IMG/VR virus record: IMGVR_UViG_3300010153_000048
Coordinates: 1-31,826 of that record
Strand: one strand, 5' to 3'
Source of the DNA: a virus
Length of the DNA: 31,826 nucleotides
The notes beneath the pieces were generated by a model. The model did not search any database. It saw nothing but the letters and a program-made list of their open reading frames with translations, and was not told the DNA's origin. The translations under genes were made by a program, and so were the position numbers. Of this stretch, positions 21,444-31,565 are shown in pieces; position 1 is the first letter of the stretch, and every line of letters begins with the position of its first letter.

Positions 21444-24400
21444 ATGACAAAAAGATATAAATTCACCGTCAATGGTGAGGTGAAATATAGAAATGTTTCG
21501 CCAGAAAAAGAGCAAGCATTTTTTGATAAATACGGGCAATACAATCCGATTATAGTAACTGATGAGCCGGGAAAGCAGGAGAGCTCCTCGGCGAAACCAG
21601 AGAACGTAATAGAGAATCAATCTATAGTTCAGCCGACGGGGCAACAATCAACAGAAGAGATAGATCTATCTCAAAACAATCAACAACAAGATACGGGTTT
21701 GAATTTGGGCGATGGTTCTTCGGAGTCATTGTTAAAAGAAAAAAGTAATTTAGAGAAAGCTGAAATTAGAGTTAGCGATAATCAACCTTTACCTTCTGAT
21801 TACGAGGTAAAAGCTAGTCAAGAATATTTAGATAAAATTTCTGGACCAATGCCTGAGATAACTTCAGACCTTACTAGTCAAAAGGAAGATCCAGCATTTG
21901 ATATTTTACAAGATAATTACATCCAGTATGGATTTAATTTTGATAAGTCATTTGATGGCGTATCTGAAATAATAGTTCATTCATCAATGGACTTAGATGG
22001 TGATGGTGTAAATGATTTTAAAGAATTTTCATTTAATGACGCTGATTCTGCCACTGAAATGGATAAGTGGATGAGAAGTCGAGCGCTTAACCCAAAAGAA
22101 AGGTTTTTAGTAATCCATGATTTGGCTCAACCTAAAGATGAACAGCTTAGTAATATACCAACTTACTTAAGTAACGCTAAGAATGTTATACAGTCAGTAA
22201 GAGATGCTTGGGGTTTGGATGAGAGGTGGAATGATACTCAAGTTATACAAGAGTATCAAGCACATATTCAAAGGCATGCTGATATACAAGACTTTGCTGT
22301 AGATACTGGTGGTGGTTTTGGTGGTATTATTTCTGAACAATTAGAAAAAGAACAAGCAGAAGCTGAGGGTAGGGAAGTGAAAGAAAGGCACGGTGATTTA
22401 GTAGCTTGGAATAATAAAAATAATTTATTAAAAGAATTTTGGCCAGAAGGTGTAGAATTTGAAGGTACGTATGGGATTGCACATAAAAATAAAAAAGACA
22501 CCGATATATTAATAGAAGCGCAAAACGAGTATATTCTTAATGAGGCTTTAAAAGAGTATAATAGACAAACAGGGGTTAGTATAAGTAATATACATCACGA
22601 GGAAGGCGGATATACACAACATGGTGCTGATATATTGAATAGTAAAGAATATCAAATTATTAAACAAAATTTAGTAATAGATGAAGATAGTTTTAATACT
22701 TATGTTAATAGAAAGTTTGAACGAAGTTATATTACAGAATTTTATGAAAATAATATAGGCGCTGAGGCTGCTAAAATGGGTGATAGCTTTTTTTTCAAAT
22801 CTGCCACACAAAAAGAAATTGAATCAGAAATAGTTACATATAGTGAAGAGCTTAGTAACAAAGTGAATAAAATTAATATAACATACGAAAAATATGAAAC
22901 TAGTGTAAATAGATTATTAGATTTAAATAAAGATTTAAATAATAATTATACTACTGATCTAGTTAACAATAGGGTAGAAGAATTAAAATCAGTATACAAT
23001 ATTAGAACTGATCAAGAAATAAAACAGGAGGTTGAAAGAATAAAGTCTTTATACAATTTAAATACTCAAGAAGGCGTTGACAAGGCTAATGAAGCAATAA
23101 AATTACTGCAACAAGAGGAAAAAAATAAAATAGATTCACTAAATCAAGATGAGTATTTTACTTTATATAAAGAAAAAATAAATCAATTTAATTACTTGAA
23201 AGATGAAATATTACCTATTCAAGAGGAGTTATTAAAAAAATACGAACAAGAAATTAGCACTTTAGAGATTAGTGAATCTGAATTAGCTACCTTAGCGTCT
23301 GTATTTGATCAAAATCACCAATTAGGAACCGTATTAGCGCAAACACTTAAGCATTCAATTATTGATTTGTTTCAAACAACAGTTATTGATGTTGGTGATA
23401 TGATAATATCATTTCCTAGTAACGTGGTAGATGATTTAACAAATAATAATCCAGTTGTAGATGCTTATCTTAAAACACAGCCTATAATTAAAACAAGAAA
23501 ACAAATATATGAAGACAAGAGCCTATTAGCTAAATGGAGTCAAGATATTAATGAGTGGCAAGAAGAAGACAAAAAAACTTTTAGAAAGTCTATTGCATTT
23601 GGTGAAATATCTAATGGTTGGGAGGCTGGTGAGTGGGCTTTAACTACTTTAGTTCAACAAGCACCACAATTAGCAACATTATATTTTACTGGTGGCGCTA
23701 GTCTATACGTGTTAGGTGCATCTAGTGCTGGTAGTAAATGGAGGGAATTAAATGACCAGAAAGATTTATATCTACAAACAGGAGGATTCCATGGACAAAA
23801 TTATAGCTTTGCTAATATGTATGCTAACGCTATATTTACTGGTACCATGGAGGGTTTGTCTGAAAAAATAACACTTGGACAAGTAAATAGATTAAGAGGT
23901 TTTGTGGGTTCTAACTGGAAGCTTGGGTTTAAAAATGGTATAAAAAAGAATTTCTTTAGTTATAGTGGGCTTAAAAAAAACGGTGGTATATATTTAAAAG
24001 ATGGTTTTAATGAAGGTTTTTCAGAAGTAGTAGCTCAGTTATCTAGTAATGCCGCGGATATAGTTAGCGGCTCAGAAGAAGTTAACATATGGGATGGGAT
24101 ACCGGAATCTTTTTTCTCTGGTTGGGTTGTTTCTACTGGACTTAAAATACCTAGTGTTGCTAAAAGATTAACAGCACCATTTAGATCAAAAGATACTAAT
24201 CAAAAGTTAGGTGAAATAGCTACCGAGATACAGTCTTTAACTAGAAAGTTAGGTAATTTAGATATATCACCAATAGAAAGATCTAATATAGAAAGTAAAA
24301 TAGCTTTATTAACACAGCGAAGTAATAATATATTACAAACAGATATTAAGAGAATAGATCTATTAAGCGATAAAGATAAAAAAGCTTTAGTAAACATAGA

Positions 24401-27400
24401 GAAAAGAAATTTTGAGGCTCGTAAAGAAGCTGAAAAAACAATGTTAAATAATAAGCTAACTAGTAAACAAAAGAAAGCTGCTATAAAAAAACTACAAAAT
24501 TCTGTTGATACTAGAGATAAAGCTAAAGACGCTATATTAAGTAAGTTACCTCCAGGAACTGTAGATAGACATTACAAAAATAAAATACAAACCATGAGAA
24601 CTATGGCTGAGTTAGCTGAGCAACATGGTGCACCAAAGGTTGAAATAGAAGAAGTTAGTGGTAAGGAGATGGCTAAGAAAAGGTCTAAACACGAGCAAAA
24701 CATGTCAGCTGGAAGAGTTAGTAAAATTGCTAAAAGAAATGAAGGTGTAATAAAGGCTATGGAAGCAATAATAGCTGATCCTAAATCTACTAAAGCGGAG
24801 GTTGCTGATGCTAAAGCTAAATTAAAAGATGCTAAACAACAAGTTAGTATAGCTTACAATCTGCTTAGATCAGATACAAATGGTGTTATGCAAGCTACGT
24901 TTGATAAAAAAGGTAACATAGCTAGCATCAAGATATTACTAAATAAAGATGCCATGATAAAAAATGGTAGAATTAATACGGCTGCTCACGAATTTATACA
25001 CGCTGTATTCGCTAATACACTTAAGTTTGATCCTCAAATGAGGGAGATACTCGGTAATAAGTTAATTGATATATTAACTAATGATAAAAACGTTTCGTTT
25101 AAATCTGATATGGCTCGTAGAACTTTTATCAAAAGAGTTTCTGTGTATAGTAAAGAAAAACAGGGTGAAGAGATGTTAGCAATAGCCGCTGAAATGTTGA
25201 TTGATGGGGATATAATAATAAAAAAACCAGGTTTAAAAAGATTAGCAAAGCTATTTAACGATTTTGTACTACGAATGTTTGGTTACGACTTAAAGTGGGG
25301 TAGAGAAATAGAGGTTGACGAAATAAGTTTTGATACAGCGGAAGACATTAAACAATTTTTAATATTATATAGAGACTCTATAATCAATAATAAACCTAGC
25401 GCTGCTATAGCTAAGATGTTAGCTAAAGGCGCTAATGGTAAAATGTTTGAAGATGCTAAAAATCCAGATGAAAGAAAAAATATTTCTATGGAAAGTAAAG
25501 CAGTTGAAGTTGCTTTAGATAATAATGAAGACTTGATGTTTAATAAAAATAAAACGGGTTTTGATGATATAATATGGAACACAACATTTAATGAAGATCA
25601 GTGGGTAAAAGAGGATTTAAAGTATAAAAATGATGAGGAGTTTAAGGTGTCTCAAGGTTTTTGGAGCGGCTATTCTAAAATAGTAGATACTAAAGATTTA
25701 GACGGGATTATAATGTCACATGTACACGAGGGTACTCCTTTGTATGACGTGATACAACCTACTAAAGGATTAAGTAAGAAACAAGCTATAGATAGATTTA
25801 TAAGACAAGTAAAAGAAAGAGCCGGTGAAAAATACATTTCTGAATTTAGTATTGATAAACTTAAAGAAAAATATGGAGAAAATGCTGATATTAGTTTATT
25901 TGGATGGTTAACTGGTTCAGGTGGTGGACAAGGTAAGTCTATAATATATAGATCTAGAGGTGACGTAATGAACAAAATGAAGCAAGAGCCGGATGCGTTT
26001 GGATTTTCTCTTGATACAACTGTGACAGAAGAAACTGGTACTACAAGGGCTGATATGATAGAAGATACTAAATCAGAATACATATCAAGATTAGAAAAAG
26101 CTGATTTATCTGTTAACGCTAAAAAAGAATCTACAGAAACTATCGAAAAGTTATCTATGGTTATGGACTCTATAGATATACCTAGTGATATTAAAGATGC
26201 TGTTAGAACCATTGTAAGGACTTCTAACGTACCTTTAACTGATTTAACATATAAAGGTATTAGGGATTTATTATTATCAATAGAAGGCAAAGCAACTTCA
26301 GAAAAAAATATAATACCAACAGGTCCTTTATTTGAGGTATTAAATTCTATATCTGCAGAATTTGGTGTTGATCCACTTCGAATATTAGCTAAACAAGATT
26401 TAAACGCAGAGCAAAGACAATCAGCGCAGACATATATATTTGACAAAGCAGTTAATGAAGATGGATCATTTAATACTAGTTTATTAGAAGCATTACCAGA
26501 AGGACAAGATAGAGATGGTAAAGCTACTGGTGTTGCTAATACTAAATTAGGGCAATTATACACTAAAGGAGAAAGAGCTAAATATAAACAAGGTGCTACA
26601 GCCGCTGGTTTAGCCACTCAAAATAAAAGAACAGATATAACTAAAGAAGAGTTTTTAAGTTTATTTGGTATAAATCCGGATGGATCATTTCAACCAGGTA
26701 CTAAAGCTGATGGAGCTATAAGAGAGTTGGTGGTTCAAATAGCACAATTAGCTGCTAACCAAGAAATAAGACTAAATGCTATAGATAATACATTGGAAAA
26801 ATCTTCTATTATAGCTAAATTAGGTGATGGTAAATCTGAGTCAATGTTTAGCGAAGAAGGCAATAAATCTTCTCTAATAAAGAACGATTATCAAATGACT
26901 GCTAAAGATATAGCTAATTTACTAGAACAAAGATTAATCCCAGGCAGTGGTGAAAATAAAAGGCTAGGGGAAATGTATAACAAGAAGGAAACCTTCGCGC
27001 AGGCTAGAGATAGAATAATAATAAAATTTTCAAAACAGTTTCCTCAACTAAGATACATACTAGCATTAGGTTTGACTGGTGGACCTAGATCTACAGCTAA
27101 AACAATGGAACATTTTGAGAGTTTAGTCGAACCTATTGAAGGAGAGCGTAGAGATGTAAGAACTCAATACACAGATAAGGGCATATTAACGTTACCTACT
27201 AAAACTATTGAAGATGCAGATGGAAATAAAATAAAAGTAGACGTTAATAGTAAAGAGTTTTATGAAATTGAATTAAATAAACTAGCAATATTAAAAGAGC
27301 TTTTCTTAGCCATACAAGAATACATTAACACTAACCCTAAAGATACGTGGTTATTTTTAGAGATGTTAAGAGATAGTGGCGCGGCTGGGCAAAATCACGT

Positions 27401-30400
27401 TATTAGAAGACTGGCTCCTTTTCTTTTTTATCCAGTAAATCCTAAAGATGATTCACCTGTTAAAAATACAAAAATTAGAGAAGAACACACTGATCCTCAA
27501 AACCAAGTGGGTACAGGATTAATGATGGCAGCTATAAGAGGTAATGTGAATGAAGTGTTCGACACTGTTATAGGTCAATCATATATGCAAGGAGGTTTAA
27601 TAATGAAGCATGATGATATGGTAAATGATGCTGGATATAAAAATACCATGCCAAATATTTATTTTAAACTTGTAATACCTAGATTAAAATCTGGTGAATT
27701 AAAATTAAATCCAGGTATGTCATCAGTAATTAGAATGGCTGTTAGTGGAGTGGATTTAAACAACTCAATGTTAGTGGGCTTTAATCAAACTATAGTTGAA
27801 TACTTTGGTTTACCAAGAATAAGGAACGCTTCTCAAGATGTTGTAGAAGCTCAGAACCAATTAATAACAATGAATTTAGCTGGGCAAATAGAATCAATGG
27901 ACGACGCTGTTGCGGAATTCAATGACAAGTATTTATCATTAAATCCTAACGGAAACACGTTGGCATCAGAAAGTAAAAACTTTGAAGATAACGAGATTAA
28001 CATGAGTAACTCTATAAACTTAGTTAGTTTATCCTTAAGTCAAAATAACTCTTTACTTAGTTTAGAGCCACCTAAAGTAAAAGGTATGTCAACGTTTGAT
28101 TTTGATGATACTTTGGCTAGAACTAAATCAGGTGTTAGATATAGAATACCTAATGAAACGGGTGAACCAGCGCCTGGTAGAAAGGTTATATTCTTAGCTG
28201 GTAGTGCTGGTAGCGGTAAATCTAATGTTGTAGAAAAATTAGGATTAAAAGAAAAAGGATTTAAAATTGTTAATCAAGATATATCTTTAGAGTGGCTGGT
28301 TAAGAATAGTGGTTTACCTACAGATATGAGAGACTTTACACCTGAGCAAGCTAGTAAATGGGGTAGTTTACAATGGGAAGCTAGAGATATAGCACAGCGT
28401 AAACGAATGAAGTTTCAAGGTAGAGGTGATGGTATAGTTGTAGATGGAACTGGTGCTAGCGCTATATCAATGGGTACGCAGGCTATGCGGTTTAGAAACG
28501 CTGGATACGATGTGCATATGTTATTTGTCGATAGTTCTTTGGAAACATCATTAGAAAGGAACAGGGCTAGAAAAGAAAGATCGTTAAAAGATTTTATAGT
28601 TGAACGTAATTGGAAAGCTGTACAGGAAAATAAAAAAGTTTTTAAAGAAGATTTTGGAAATAATTTTACTGAAGTAAATACTGATAATTTAAAGCAAGAA
28701 GATCCTATGCCAAATGAACTGGTTGATAAAATAAACGAGTTTACTGATGGTTACATTAAAGGTAGACTAACGGCGGAAGAGTTTGCTAGCCAAGGTTCTG
28801 AACTACGAGACAAAGGAGCCGAATTTGATTTTTCAGAATTTAATAAAGTAGTAGATGGAACACCTGGGCCATTACTTGATAAAGCTAGAAACAGGGCTAA
28901 AAAGTTTGGTACAAAAGATATGTTTGTTTTAACAGCCCGACCTCAAGCTTCAGCTGTTGCTATACATGAGTTTTTAAAATCACAGGGATTAAATATACCT
29001 TTAGAAAATATAACTGGTCTTGCTAATAGTACTGGTGAAGCTAAGGCTCAGTGGATGTTAGATAAGTTTGCTGAAGGTTATAATGATATGTATTTTGTAG
29101 ATGACGCTATGCAGAACGTTGCTGCGGTTAGAGATGTGTTAAATCAACTTGATATTAAATCTAAAGTTGTGCAAGCTAAATTAAAACAAGTTGATAGATT
29201 AGTTGAGACTAATTCTATCACTATGGAAAGTAAAGTGGTTAATCCTAAAACAGAAAAGAGATTAGACAATAAGTTTAATCAAATGATCGAACGTAGAAAA
29301 GGTGTTAAATTTGAAAAAGTTTTTTCTGCCGCCGAAGCTAGAAAAAGAGGATCACAATCTAATATTGTTAGATTTTTAAAGAGTTTATATATACCACCAT
29401 CAGCTGAGGATTTTAAAGGTTTATTATATTACTTCTTAGGCTCTGGTAAGCAAGGTGAAGCTGATATGAAGTTTTTTGCTGATAAGTTAATAACACCCTT
29501 CGCTAAAGGAATAAAAGCTTGGAATATATATAAACAAAATATGGTTGATGAGTATAAAGCTTTGAAAAAACGAATTCCTAGTGTTGGTAAACAATTAAAT
29601 GCTAAAGTTTTAGGAACTAATTTTACAAATGATACAGCTATTAGAGTTTACTTATGGACAAAAGCTGGATTTGAAATACCAGGTATATCTAAAAGATTAC
29701 AAAATAAATTAGTAAAACACGTTAACAATAATCCTGATTTAAAACTTTTTGCTGATTCATTATCAAAGATAAGCCGTAGGAAAGACGGGTATATTCAACC
29801 TAGTGAAAATTGGATGATGGAAACTATACCTACAGATTTAAGAAATATTGTAGAAAGAGTTGGTAGAAAAGAATTTTTATCTGAATGGATTAATAATAAA
29901 AATATAATATTTTCTCAAAAAAACTTAAATAAAATAGAAGCTTTATATGGAGCTAGATTCTTAGAGGCTTTAGAAAATATATTGTATCGTATGGAAAACG
30001 GTACCAATAGGGTATACAGTAAAGATGGGGACGTTAATTGGTTTACTAATTGGATAAATAGCTCTGTTGGTGCTATCATGTTCTTTAACATGAGATCTGC
30101 TTTACTACAAACTATATCTACTGTTAACTTTATAAACTGGAGTGATAATAATATATTCAAAGCATCAGCAGCATTTGCTAATCAAGATCAATTTTGGAAA
30201 GATTTCTCTATGTTATTTAATTCGCCGCAATTAAAACAAAGAAGAAGAGGTTTGCAAACAGACGTATCCGCCTCAGAGTTAACAAAAACATTTGCGGAAA
30301 ATGGATATACTCCTCAAACTTTAATTAATTATTTATTACAAATAGGTTTTACACCAACACAAATAGCGGATAGTTTTGCTATAGCATTTGGTGGTGCTAG

Positions 30401-31565
30401 TTTTTATAGAAATAGATACAATAAATATGTAAGACAAGGAATGTCTCCTAAAAGAGCTCATAATAGAACTATGTTAGAGTTTCAAGAGATTGCTGAAGAA
30501 ACACAACAATCATCAAGAGAAGATTTAATATCACAACAACAGGCCAGTCCACTTGGCCGTATAATATTAGCCTTCCAAAATGTTACAATGCAATACGGTA
30601 GGTTAACTAAAAAAGCTTTGTCTGATATAGTTAATGGTAGAGGCGATATGAAAACTAATGTATCGAAAGTTATATATTACGGAGCTGTACAAAATATAAT
30701 ATTCGCATCATTACAAAGCGCCCTTGCTTTTATAATGTGGGGAGATGATGAAGAGGAAATAGAAAAGAAAACTACTAGAACATTTAACAGTGTTTTAGAT
30801 TCATTCTTAAGAGGTACAGGTTTGTACGGCGCTTTGGTATCTACCCTTAAAAATACTGTTATACAATGGAACTTACAAAAAGATAAACCTTGGGGTAAAG
30901 AGCGTATAGAAAAAATAGCCCTTGAAGTAATAAATCTTTCCCCACCAATTGGTAGTAAAGTTAGGAAAATTGTAAATGCTTACTATGCAGATTCTTGGAA
31001 TGAAGGTGTATCTGAAGAATTAGGTTGGAGAATAGAGAATCCTAAAGTTTCTATGTGGGCAAATATAGTTGAAGCTGTATTTAATATTCCTCTTGCTAGA
31101 ATACAAAGTAAAGCAAATAATTTAGAAGAAGCTATAACTGGAGATCATGATACGTGGAAAAAAGTTGCTATGTTATTTGGTTGGAATTATTGGAATTTAG
31201 GAGTTGAAGATGAAGAGTTAGAAGAAGCTAAAGATAGAGCTGAAGAAAAAAATAAAGAAGAAAAGAAAGAAGAAAAAGAAAAAGAAAAGGAAGAGGAAAA
31301 GAAAGCTGAAGAAGAAGAAAAAAAGAAAAAAGGTATCAAAACAGTGCAGTGCTCTGGAGTTAATTCAGCTGGGCAAAGATGTGGAATGACTACTGAAACT
31401 GCAGCTAAAACGTGGAAGTGTATGCATCACATGAACTTCACAGATGGAATGGATAGAGATGGTGATGGTGCTAAAGAGTATAGATGTACAGCTACTAAAA
31501 CTAATGGCAAAAGATGCAAGAACAAAACCGAGAATAAGAATAAAAGATGTTATGCTCACCAATAA
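21444..31565 (+). CDS. Giant multidomain protein: metallopeptidase-like, nested HAD/P-loop kinase, Zn knuckles
   Basis: 3373 aa, last of three candidate ejected proteins. In order: a short N-terminal motif (KFTVNGEVKYRNVSPEKEQ), a Gln/Ser/Glu-rich stretch to about 150, an EF-hand-like loop at 183-194, predicted coiled coil at about 450-610, a hydrophobic segment at 733-763, helices to about 1120, and an HExxH zincin-like motif at 1182-1186. An uncharacterised middle with EEHTDPQNQVGTG near 2013 follows. A HAD phosphatase at about 2215-2565 is split by a P-loop kinase. A helical C-terminal region holds hydrophobic helices at about 2875-2889 and 3076-3099, then a Glu/Lys linker (3254-3296) and two Cys/His knuckles. 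The layout resembles phage polyvalent proteins delivered with DNA. No RNA polymerase signature or murein-hydrolase motif was recognised. Ejection into the host is inference; the domain motifs are visible. Confidence 0.75.
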   Translation: MTKRYKFTVNGEVKYRNVSPEKEQAFFDKYGQYNPIIVTDEPGKQESSSAKPENVIENQSIVQPTGQQSTEEIDLSQNNQQQDTGLNLGDGSSESLLKEKSNLEKAEIRVSDNQPLPSDYEVKASQEYLDKISGPMPEITSDLTSQKEDPAFDILQDNYIQYGFNFDKSFDGVSEIIVHSSMDLDGDGVNDFKEFSFNDADSATEMDKWMRSRALNPKERFLVIHDLAQPKDEQLSNIPTYLSNAKNVIQSVRDAWGLDERWNDTQVIQEYQAHIQRHADIQDFAVDTGGGFGGIISEQLEKEQAEAEGREVKERHGDLVAWNNKNNLLKEFWPEGVEFEGTYGIAHKNKKDTDILIEAQNEYILNEALKEYNRQTGVSISNIHHEEGGYTQHGADILNSKEYQIIKQNLVIDEDSFNTYVNRKFERSYITEFYENNIGAEAAKMGDSFFFKSATQKEIESEIVTYSEELSNKVNKINITYEKYETSVNRLLDLNKDLNNNYTTDLVNNRVEELKSVYNIRTDQEIKQEVERIKSLYNLNTQEGVDKANEAIKLLQQEEKNKIDSLNQDEYFTLYKEKINQFNYLKDEILPIQEELLKKYEQEISTLEISESELATLASVFDQNHQLGTVLAQTLKHSIIDLFQTTVIDVGDMIISFPSNVVDDLTNNNPVVDAYLKTQPIIKTRKQIYEDKSLLAKWSQDINEWQEEDKKTFRKSIAFGEISNGWEAGEWALTTLVQQAPQLATLYFTGGASLYVLGASSAGSKWRELNDQKDLYLQTGGFHGQNYSFANMYANAIFTGTMEGLSEKITLGQVNRLRGFVGSNWKLGFKNGIKKNFFSYSGLKKNGGIYLKDGFNEGFSEVVAQLSSNAADIVSGSEEVNIWDGIPESFFSGWVVSTGLKIPSVAKRLTAPFRSKDTNQKLGEIATEIQSLTRKLGNLDISPIERSNIESKIALLTQRSNNILQTDIKRIDLLSDKDKKALVNIEKRNFEARKEAEKTMLNNKLTSKQKKAAIKKLQNSVDTRDKAKDAILSKLPPGTVDRHYKNKIQTMRTMAELAEQHGAPKVEIEEVSGKEMAKKRSKHEQNMSAGRVSKIAKRNEGVIKAMEAIIADPKSTKAEVADAKAKLKDAKQQVSIAYNLLRSDTNGVMQATFDKKGNIASIKILLNKDAMIKNGRINTAAHEFIHAVFANTLKFDPQMREILGNKLIDILTNDKNVSFKSDMARRTFIKRVSVYSKEKQGEEMLAIAAEMLIDGDIIIKKPGLKRLAKLFNDFVLRMFGYDLKWGREIEVDEISFDTAEDIKQFLILYRDSIINNKPSAAIAKMLAKGANGKMFEDAKNPDERKNISMESKAVEVALDNNEDLMFNKNKTGFDDIIWNTTFNEDQWVKEDLKYKNDEEFKVSQGFWSGYSKIVDTKDLDGIIMSHVHEGTPLYDVIQPTKGLSKKQAIDRFIRQVKERAGEKYISEFSIDKLKEKYGENADISLFGWLTGSGGGQGKSIIYRSRGDVMNKMKQEPDAFGFSLDTTVTEETGTTRADMIEDTKSEYISRLEKADLSVNAKKESTETIEKLSMVMDSIDIPSDIKDAVRTIVRTSNVPLTDLTYKGIRDLLLSIEGKATSEKNIIPTGPLFEVLNSISAEFGVDPLRILAKQDLNAEQRQSAQTYIFDKAVNEDGSFNTSLLEALPEGQDRDGKATGVANTKLGQLYTKGERAKYKQGATAAGLATQNKRTDITKEEFLSLFGINPDGSFQPGTKADGAIRELVVQIAQLAANQEIRLNAIDNTLEKSSIIAKLGDGKSESMFSEEGNKSSLIKNDYQMTAKDIANLLEQRLIPGSGENKRLGEMYNKKETFAQARDRIIIKFSKQFPQLRYILALGLTGGPRSTAKTMEHFESLVEPIEGERRDVRTQYTDKGILTLPTKTIEDADGNKIKVDVNSKEFYEIELNKLAILKELFLAIQEYINTNPKDTWLFLEMLRDSGAAGQNHVIRRLAPFLFYPVNPKDDSPVKNTKIREEHTDPQNQVGTGLMMAAIRGNVNEVFDTVIGQSYMQGGLIMKHDDMVNDAGYKNTMPNIYFKLVIPRLKSGELKLNPGMSSVIRMAVSGVDLNNSMLVGFNQTIVEYFGLPRIRNASQDVVEAQNQLITMNLAGQIESMDDAVAEFNDKYLSLNPNGNTLASESKNFEDNEINMSNSINLVSLSLSQNNSLLSLEPPKVKGMSTFDFDDTLARTKSGVRYRIPNETGEPAPGRKVIFLAGSAGSGKSNVVEKLGLKEKGFKIVNQDISLEWLVKNSGLPTDMRDFTPEQASKWGSLQWEARDIAQRKRMKFQGRGDGIVVDGTGASAISMGTQAMRFRNAGYDVHMLFVDSSLETSLERNRARKERSLKDFIVERNWKAVQENKKVFKEDFGNNFTEVNTDNLKQEDPMPNELVDKINEFTDGYIKGRLTAEEFASQGSELRDKGAEFDFSEFNKVVDGTPGPLLDKARNRAKKFGTKDMFVLTARPQASAVAIHEFLKSQGLNIPLENITGLANSTGEAKAQWMLDKFAEGYNDMYFVDDAMQNVAAVRDVLNQLDIKSKVVQAKLKQVDRLVETNSITMESKVVNPKTEKRLDNKFNQMIERRKGVKFEKVFSAAEARKRGSQSNIVRFLKSLYIPPSAEDFKGLLYYFLGSGKQGEADMKFFADKLITPFAKGIKAWNIYKQNMVDEYKALKKRIPSVGKQLNAKVLGTNFTNDTAIRVYLWTKAGFEIPGISKRLQNKLVKHVNNNPDLKLFADSLSKISRRKDGYIQPSENWMMETIPTDLRNIVERVGRKEFLSEWINNKNIIFSQKNLNKIEALYGARFLEALENILYRMENGTNRVYSKDGDVNWFTNWINSSVGAIMFFNMRSALLQTISTVNFINWSDNNIFKASAAFANQDQFWKDFSMLFNSPQLKQRRRGLQTDVSASELTKTFAENGYTPQTLINYLLQIGFTPTQIADSFAIAFGGASFYRNRYNKYVRQGMSPKRAHNRTMLEFQEIAEETQQSSREDLISQQQASPLGRIILAFQNVTMQYGRLTKKALSDIVNGRGDMKTNVSKVIYYGAVQNIIFASLQSALAFIMWGDDEEEIEKKTTRTFNSVLDSFLRGTGLYGALVSTLKNTVIQWNLQKDKPWGKERIEKIALEVINLSPPIGSKVRKIVNAYYADSWNEGVSEELGWRIENPKVSMWANIVEAVFNIPLARIQSKANNLEEAITGDHDTWKKVAMLFGWNYWNLGVEDEELEEAKDRAEEKNKEEKKEEKEKEKEEEKKAEEEEKKKKGIKTVQCSGVNSAGQRCGMTTETAAKTWKCMHHMNFTDGMDRDGDGAKEYRCTATKTNGKRCKNKTENKNKRCYAHQ
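24987..25193 (+). other. HExxH metallopeptidase-like domain inside the giant protein
   Basis: H1182-E1183-F-I-H1186 lies in a helix-like context (NTAAHEFIHAVFANTL) after a strand-like run (SIKILLNKDAMI). A candidate third zinc ligand is in GEEMLAIAAEM (E1242, E1243 or E1250), about 56-64 residues downstream. This is the layout of zincin peptidases of the kind found in phage polyvalent proteins. It could mature the virion protein or cut a host target; the sequence does not tell which. Confidence 0.68.
28083..29140 (+). other. HAD phosphatase split by an inserted P-loop kinase
   Basis: HAD motif I is D2219-F-D2221-D-T2223 (TFDFDDTLA). About 30 residues later a kinase begins: Walker A G2253 to S2260 (GSAGSGKS), a post-strand-2 acidic site in NQDISLEW, a Walker B-like VVDGTG with D2334, and an Arg-rich lid R2372-R2379 (RNRARKER). 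The HAD part resumes at about 2441 (GRLTAEEFA) and continues with motif II T2497 (FVLTARP), a candidate motif III Lys2534 (GEAKAQW) and motif IV D2553-D2554 (YFVDDA). All motifs needed for both activities are present. The kinase most resembles the zeta-toxin/T4 polynucleotide kinase type. Confidence 0.78.
31350..31562 (+). other. Tandem Cys3His zinc-knuckle-like motifs at the giant's C-terminus
   Basis: Two copies share one spacing: C3303-x9-C3313-x12-C3326-x2-H3329, and C3348-x9-C3358-x10-C3369-x2-H3372, the latter one residue from the end. Both have Gly three residues before the second Cys (SAGQRC, TNGKRC). They follow a 43-residue Glu/Lys-rich helix, so they probably sit on a stiff stalk. 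Zinc binding and nucleic-acid or protein contact are inferred. Confidence 0.7.

Follow-up and report, generated by a model that had tools for sequence, protein, structure and literature searches.

The giant gene and its virion module

The window analysed here is the whole of virus record IMGVR_UViG_3300010153_000048, a marine phage genome fragment of 31,826 bases that carries every large gene on the + strand. Its gene order runs from the end of TerL through the portal and the capsid-region genes to a 2,614-aa protein, whose C-terminal domain is a crAss-type muzzle, and on through further virion-region genes to a 3,373-aa protein encoded by a single ORF at the end of the virion module (21444..31565, + strand). 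Identities of 41-51% link the portal to its counterparts in cultured flavophages (Maribacter phage Panino, Flavobacterium phage elemo) and in an environmental podovirus genome; Cellulophaga and Tenacibaculum phages have matching portals too. The same operon closes in elemo with a 3,757-aa gene (gp72) annotated as 'structural protein', and the Tenacibaculum phage Gundel_1 protein gp074, which has the same annotation, matches residues 699-1040 of the giant protein (25.8%, 9e-12). Gundel_1 belongs to the Pachyviridae and has podovirus morphology (PMC8776804). Both isolates thus resemble the window in carrying a giant gene in the virion module alongside a related portal. Based on this synteny with annotated isolate genes, the 3,373-aa protein probably belongs to the virion, in agreement with the original prediction.

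Several parts of the giant protein are well conserved, the best of them being the HAD phosphatase described below and the 600 residues that follow it. The stretch behind the HAD (residues 2600-3270, window 29241-31253) is conserved nearly as well as the HAD and has no Pfam match. Further upstream, an HExxH motif of zincin-like metallopeptidase type lies at residues 1182-1186 (24987..25001, +) in the sequence AAHEFIHAVF, and H1182, E1183 and H1186 are nearly invariant among 13 full-length relatives of the protein; it may mark a self-processing zincin of the kind suggested for polyvalent proteins. The chain ends in a double Cys/His zinc-finger-like repeat (residues 3303-3373, 31350..31562, +) behind a Lys/Glu-rich linker. 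The tandem units follow the patterns C-x9-C-x12-C-x2-H and C-x9-C-x10-C-x2-H, their GxRC and CxxH columns are visible in relatives, and they are possibly a DNA-binding zinc finger.

A P-loop kinase nested in a HAD phosphatase

Residues 2212-2577 of the giant protein comprise a HAD phosphatase that holds a whole P-loop kinase between its motifs I and II. The N-terminal HAD piece (residues 2212-2238, 28077..28157, +) carries motif I, D2219-F-D2221-D-T (residues 2219-2223, 28098..28112, +), which reads D-x-D-x-T in every relative, followed by the first strand of the flap hairpin (about 2230-2236, 28131..28151, +; from DSSP of the model), where the insert begins. The kinase then occupies residues 2244-2436 (28173..28751, +). 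Within it we recognised a Walker A motif, GSAGSGKS (2253-2260, 28200..28223, +); a putative general base, D2279, in an NxD motif (28278..28280, +); the sequence VVDGTG (2332-2337, 28437..28454, +), which aligns more closely with the EGT of zeta toxins than with the DTN/DATN of PNK; and an arginine-rich lid, RNRARKER (2372-2379, 28557..28580, +). The C-terminal HAD piece (residues 2437-2577, 28752..29174, +) supplies the second hairpin strand and motifs II (T2497-A-R2499), III (K2534) and IV (D2553-D2554). Every motif of the original prediction falls, in the translated ORF, on the residue assigned to it.

The kinase segment scores above the curated cut-offs of both Pfam AAA_33 (42.8 bits) and Zeta_toxin (34.0 bits, cut-off 22.3). 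The window's own segment is matched by no HAD model, and the weak matches of DUF2608 and of the general HAD model fall on HAD-only relatives. The HAD assignment is based instead on the four motifs, their invariance and the structural model.

An AlphaFold2 model of residues 2205-2580, built from 53 aligned sequences, has a pLDDT of 86 and a pTM of 0.71; at this pTM the placement of the two domains relative to each other is not reliable. The order of elements in the model runs from the motif I strand to the hairpin strand at about 2230-2236, through the kinase, to a strand at about 2437-2443 and then the remaining HAD. The model of a HAD-only relative has these two strands as well, at 24-28 and 34-38, joined by a five-residue turn. 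A Foldseek search with this HAD-only model gave no match below 0.001, with HADs leading by probability at low TM-scores. The C1 cap site of HAD proteins is a position within the beta-hairpin that follows motif I. As the kinase is inserted between hairpin strands that a short turn joins in HAD-only relatives, it lies in the C1 cap site, and the protein has both motifs I-IV and an insert inside the post-motif-I hairpin, as expected of a C1-type insert. The split order of the motifs, the model and the same arrangement in relatives all bear out the earlier proposal of a kinase looped out of the HAD cap site. We are highly confident of this anatomy: a HAD phosphohydrolase with a complete P-loop kinase in its flap-hairpin loop, giving two active sites in one compact module.

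Conservation and selection of the nested module

The nested arrangement is kept over 352 residues in viral relatives, and 55-58 sequences with identities of about 44-86% show no change in the catalytic residues. On the HAD side, D2219, D2221, T2497, R2499 and K2534 occur without change in 169 distinct relatives, among which D2553-D2554 is altered in a single truncated row (L073). Relative rows were chosen by the pattern D[FV]D[DE]T, so the invariance of motif I is partly fixed by that selection, although ten left-out rows also have D-x-D-x-T. On the kinase side, all 58 HAD-linked and all 73 standalone kinases compared have K2259, D2279, D2334 and T2336 unchanged; both sets also keep the lid residues R2376 and R2379 throughout, and most of their members keep R2372. 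Pairwise dN/dS is about 0.05-0.14 for HAD and kinase alike.

The nesting is therefore real, conserved and selected. Conservation had been put forward earlier as a check on the arrangement, and 55 distinct nested forms retain it together with their catalytic residues. The Pfam scores, the kept arrangement, the invariant residues, the dN/dS values and the model together place the observation beyond chance. These data also bear on whether the domains might serve the giant protein's folding or assembly and not catalysis after entry. Such a structural role would fit the location of the module in the giant protein's best-conserved parts, the HAD and the 600 residues behind it. However, both domains keep all their catalytic residues and many relatives lack the kinase altogether, and we regard a purely structural role as very unlikely.

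Nested, HAD-only and tandem relatives

Scans of viral contigs recovered 55 distinct HADs of nested type, 111 HAD-only forms and three in which HAD and kinase stand in tandem, HAD first; these counts depend on the queries used. The HAD-only forms, with their short hairpin, are the standalone versions lacking the insert whose existence had been raised as a question by the original prediction. Among bacterial and archaeal genomes, a scan by the nested profile gave only two HAD matches, both in metagenome-assembled contigs. Most relatives are HAD-only, and the kinase was absent elsewhere on the 24 HAD-only contigs examined, several of them 60-71 kb long, suggesting that the phosphatase is the core of the module and the kinase an optional part. 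Where the kinase is present, it is tied to the HAD.

One branch of the HAD tree (100/100) unites all nested forms with four HAD-only forms, and the tandem forms are placed among the remaining HAD-only ones. Branch support (97/96) suggests that those four lost the kinase secondarily, but the loss is not secured, as the AU test does not reject the nested forms as a single clade (p=0.242). Tandem and nested kinases are 73-78% identical to each other, compared with an average of 69% among the nested ones, while the tandem HADs share 73-76% identity with HAD-only HADs and only 58-60% with nested HADs. As nested-like kinases here adjoin HADs of the HAD-only clade, HAD and kinase have been coupled at least twice. 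These identities are most simply read as the re-fusion of a kinase of nested origin in another lineage, about 30 residues behind the HAD. As a rough estimate from one event, re-fusion within 50 residues of the HAD would have a chance of roughly 3% if positions were uniform along about 3,800 residues.

Identity of the kinase

A Foldseek search of the PDB placed the predicted kinase fold nearest to the bacterial Pnkp kinase (8.8e-8, TM to target 0.73-0.76), followed by Pnkp1, T4 Pnkp (1.1e-6), zeta toxin (2.4e-6) and adenylate kinase (3.7e-6); Pnkp1 and T4 Pnkp were aligned over both domains. The structural alignment to Pnkp and zeta toxin suggested earlier therefore favours the bacterial Pnkp kinase, with T4 Pnkp and zeta close behind. 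Judged by its sequence, the kinase is a member of a marine phage zeta/AAA_33-like family: kinases of Pelagibacter phage HTVC008M (gp129), Methylophilales phage Melnitz (gene 118) and Agrobacterium phage Atu_ph07 (gp053) score 87-108 bits, against 12 bits for T4 Pnkp. In hhalign, HTVC008M gp129 reaches 99.6% and T4 Pnkp 83.6% for its first 35 residues. The phage kinases, as a domain in Atu_ph07 gp053, share about 190 residues with the nested kinase, including N-x-D, DxTG, GYD and RNxxRxxR. They are standalone or fused to other domains, whereas the kinase of the window sits inside a HAD; among the phage records searched, the HAD-kinase region matches other proteins only via its kinase. PDB sequence searches returned thioredoxin-like and miniGq matches, which we discarded as noise with no usable homologue among them.

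The matches of this family also touch on a role in which the kinase acts on tRNA or protein, like PSTK or KTI12, with the HAD as a separate phosphatase that does no more than harbour it. Foldseek matches include O-phosphoseryl-tRNA kinase, and HTVC008M gp129 matches NCBIfam selen_PSTK at 2.5e-10. This match lies under the cut-off, at 40 bits against 290, and the window's own kinase has none, so that we consider such a substrate highly improbable.

As in T4, bacterial and animal Pnkp, a DxDxT HAD phosphatase is paired here with a P-loop kinase, whose fold class is also the same; in other viruses such a pairing repairs RNA or DNA at broken ends. The module has the corresponding Walker A motif, base Asp and lid arginines as well as HAD motifs II-IV. 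In polynucleotide kinases, an acceptor-site Arg lies three residues after the base Asp (Arg38 in T4, Arg41 in Clostridium thermocellum). The equivalent position is Leu2282 in all 58 HAD-linked kinases, and Phe or Tyr in the 73 standalone ones. After D-x-T-G, standalone kinases have R/K-D where HAD-linked kinases have G/A-S, from which we infer that the acceptor site probably changed on joining the HAD. The HAD itself has nothing beyond motif I in common with the T4 Pnkp phosphatase (hhalign 0.9%), and a PDB profile search with it reached mammalian PNKP only at E=0.22. Pnkp domains stand end to end, whereas those of the window and 54 other distinct relatives are nested and three relatives have them end to end with the HAD first; the module is moreover part of a 3,373-aa virion-module protein, with no RNA ligase found. 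Membership of the Pnkp family, as first envisaged, is thus not upheld: the acceptor Arg is absent, the HAD shows no sequence kinship, and RNA ligase, RtcB and DUF6267 were not found among 39 relatives.

Zeta-type chemistry was the alternative already named by the original prediction. The kinase would phosphorylate either a free nucleotide or a nucleotide sugar such as UDP-GlcNAc, the HAD would dephosphorylate the same or a linked metabolite, and after ejection host wall synthesis or nucleotide pools could be weakened or tuned. Like the zeta/PezT UDP-GlcNAc kinases, the nested kinase has a DGT motif, a base Asp, an Arg-rich lid and a Pfam Zeta_toxin match above cut-off. Thr118 of the zeta E116-G-T118 motif, which binds the beta-phosphate of UDP-GlcNAc (PMC3062530), corresponds to T2336 of the invariant D2334-G-T2336. 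Polyvalent proteins and MuF fusions have also been reported to include zeta-like kinases (PMC5512222). In register with the common E/D-G-T motif, however, the equivalent of zeta Arg120, which contacts the UDP phosphates, is Gly or Ala in 55 of the 58 HAD-linked kinases. The kinase is an internal domain in a virion operon, inserted in a HAD, and no cognate epsilon antitoxin gene of its own was found in the window; Foldseek also favours the Pnkp kinase, with a zeta TM of about 0.5. We hold a zeta-type function to be possible but rather doubtful.

One nested relative in the Foldseek viral library, UniProt A0A218MLT5, has been automatically named UDP-N-acetylglucosamine kinase. This name would favour a zeta-type function, but is unsafe as the protein has no Arg120 equivalent. 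Since the module departs from Pnkp in two features (domain order and acceptor Arg) and from zeta in one (Arg120), we have filed it under neither.

Ligases and gene neighbourhoods

RNA ligase, RtcB and DUF6267 were searched for among 39 relatives and not found; most of these contigs are fragments, in which absence of a partner ligase is weak evidence. PF09414 'RNA ligase' matches in 11 of the 39 were set aside as support for RNA repair, because the two that were checked proved to be ATP DNA ligases (PF01068 plus an OB domain). The T4 Rnl1-type model PF09511 matched no relative, and its control was empty too. Some relatives, with and without the kinase, do encode an ATP DNA ligase. No tRNA genes were found in 15 flanking loci.

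Around standalone relatives of the kinase (141 contigs), the next gene encodes a HIGH-type nucleotidyltransferase in about 81 cases and an NT5C-type HAD in 24, and DUF6267 is nearby in 92. At L085:5950-7249 and on similar contigs, the NT5C-type HAD gene follows the standalone kinase gene, forming another kinase-HAD pairing. As hhalign found no kinship between the nested HAD and the NT5C-like genes of Melnitz and HTVC008M, this pairing is one of neighbourhood only. A further combination occurs at L371:3459-7043 (also L370, L372 and L373), where a 1,195-aa fusion joins a kinase of the same family to a PAP2 phosphatase and to Pol-beta-type and HIGH-type nucleotidyltransferases. The kinase is therefore found with a phosphatase in at least three settings, a pattern that speaks for a coupled task of the two enzymes and, less strongly, for end repair.

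The nucleotidyltransferase neighbours and fusion also suggest a small-nucleotide role in counter-defence, in which kinase and HAD would modify or dephosphorylate NAD-derived or nucleotide messengers of host immunity at entry. Polyvalent proteins have been proposed to hold signal-degrading enzymes (PMC7824862), and a zeta-like fold is reported to phosphorylate NAD (PMC5087710). Against this, no PADLOC model matched above noise, and we judge counter-defence of this type distinctly unlikely.

DUF6267 (PF19782) deserves separate mention. The domain is found at L086:3209-4441, which corresponds to HTVC008M gp127, and in 80 relatives, with the motifs KWDGAPA, QGDLL and PEGYVAVDxxGxAVKLVDR. Its KWDG and PEGYVAVDxxGxAVKLVDR resemble ligase motifs I and IV-V, and hhalign paired the latter with EGYVAV of T4 RnlA at negligible overall probability. 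The domain may represent a ligase family of T4-like marine phages that has yet to be described.

Discussion

The reading that we prefer, tentatively and with a probability of roughly 0.38, is that the nested kinase-phosphatase acts on nucleic-acid ends in the manner of Pnkp. The HAD site would take phosphate off broken ends (a 3'-phosphate, for instance) and the kinase, using ATP, would add phosphate to ends (a 5'-OH, for instance), leaving healed ends that a ligase, whether of phage or host, would be needed to seal. The phosphatase would be the core function and the kinase an optional, mobile addition. The giant protein is probably packaged and ejected, which would make the module active at entry, and its own zincin-like part may cut it.

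In favour of a Pnkp-like mechanism we count the nesting model, the Foldseek order, the preservation of both active sites, the dN/dS values, the coupling of HAD and kinase on at least two occasions, the NT5C and PAP2 pairings, the DUF6267 neighbours, the ATP DNA ligases and the virion context. Against it are the Leu at the acceptor-Arg site, the restriction of HAD similarity with T4 Pnkp to motif I, the zeta/AAA_33-like kin, the lack of RNA ligase, RtcB, DUF6267 and tRNA genes in the relatives and loci searched, and the lack of a kinase in two thirds of the relatives sampled; zeta toxin and adenylate kinase also follow only 1-2 orders behind in Foldseek E-value. The Pnkp-like mechanism is what we infer from this balance, with nucleotide or nucleotide-sugar chemistry close behind.

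The position of the module in an ejected virion protein is plausible, and ejection with the genome followed by repair at entry would extend this reasoning. The full proposal, that a virion-borne, ejected kinase-phosphatase with the kinase as HAD cap repairs or chemically resets ends cut by host defences before phage genes are expressed, seems to us unlikely.

Large polyvalent phage proteins, including some with zeta-like kinases, have been described previously (Iyer et al. 2017, PMC5512222). The giant protein resembles them in its size, multidomain build and encoding with virion genes, and combines a zeta-like kinase, a HAD, an HExxH motif and a zinc-finger-like end in one chain. No known polyvalent Pfam domain matches it, and a term search of that paper found neither a polynucleotide kinase/phosphatase nor a HAD domain. 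No earlier description of a kinase within a HAD was found in the open-licence papers searched. We therefore regard the module as a new architecture built from known parts, whose status as a Pnkp is not established.

The empty, nested and tandem forms within one phage group represent domain insertion and re-fusion inside a single gene family, and this natural series lets function be tested through comparison of close relatives. Should the module heal ends, a repair enzyme would be delivered alongside the genome, with a bearing on the survival of phages that meet RNA- and DNA-cleaving defences before expression begins. If it acts instead on nucleotide sugars or signals, polyvalent proteins would gain a new effector.
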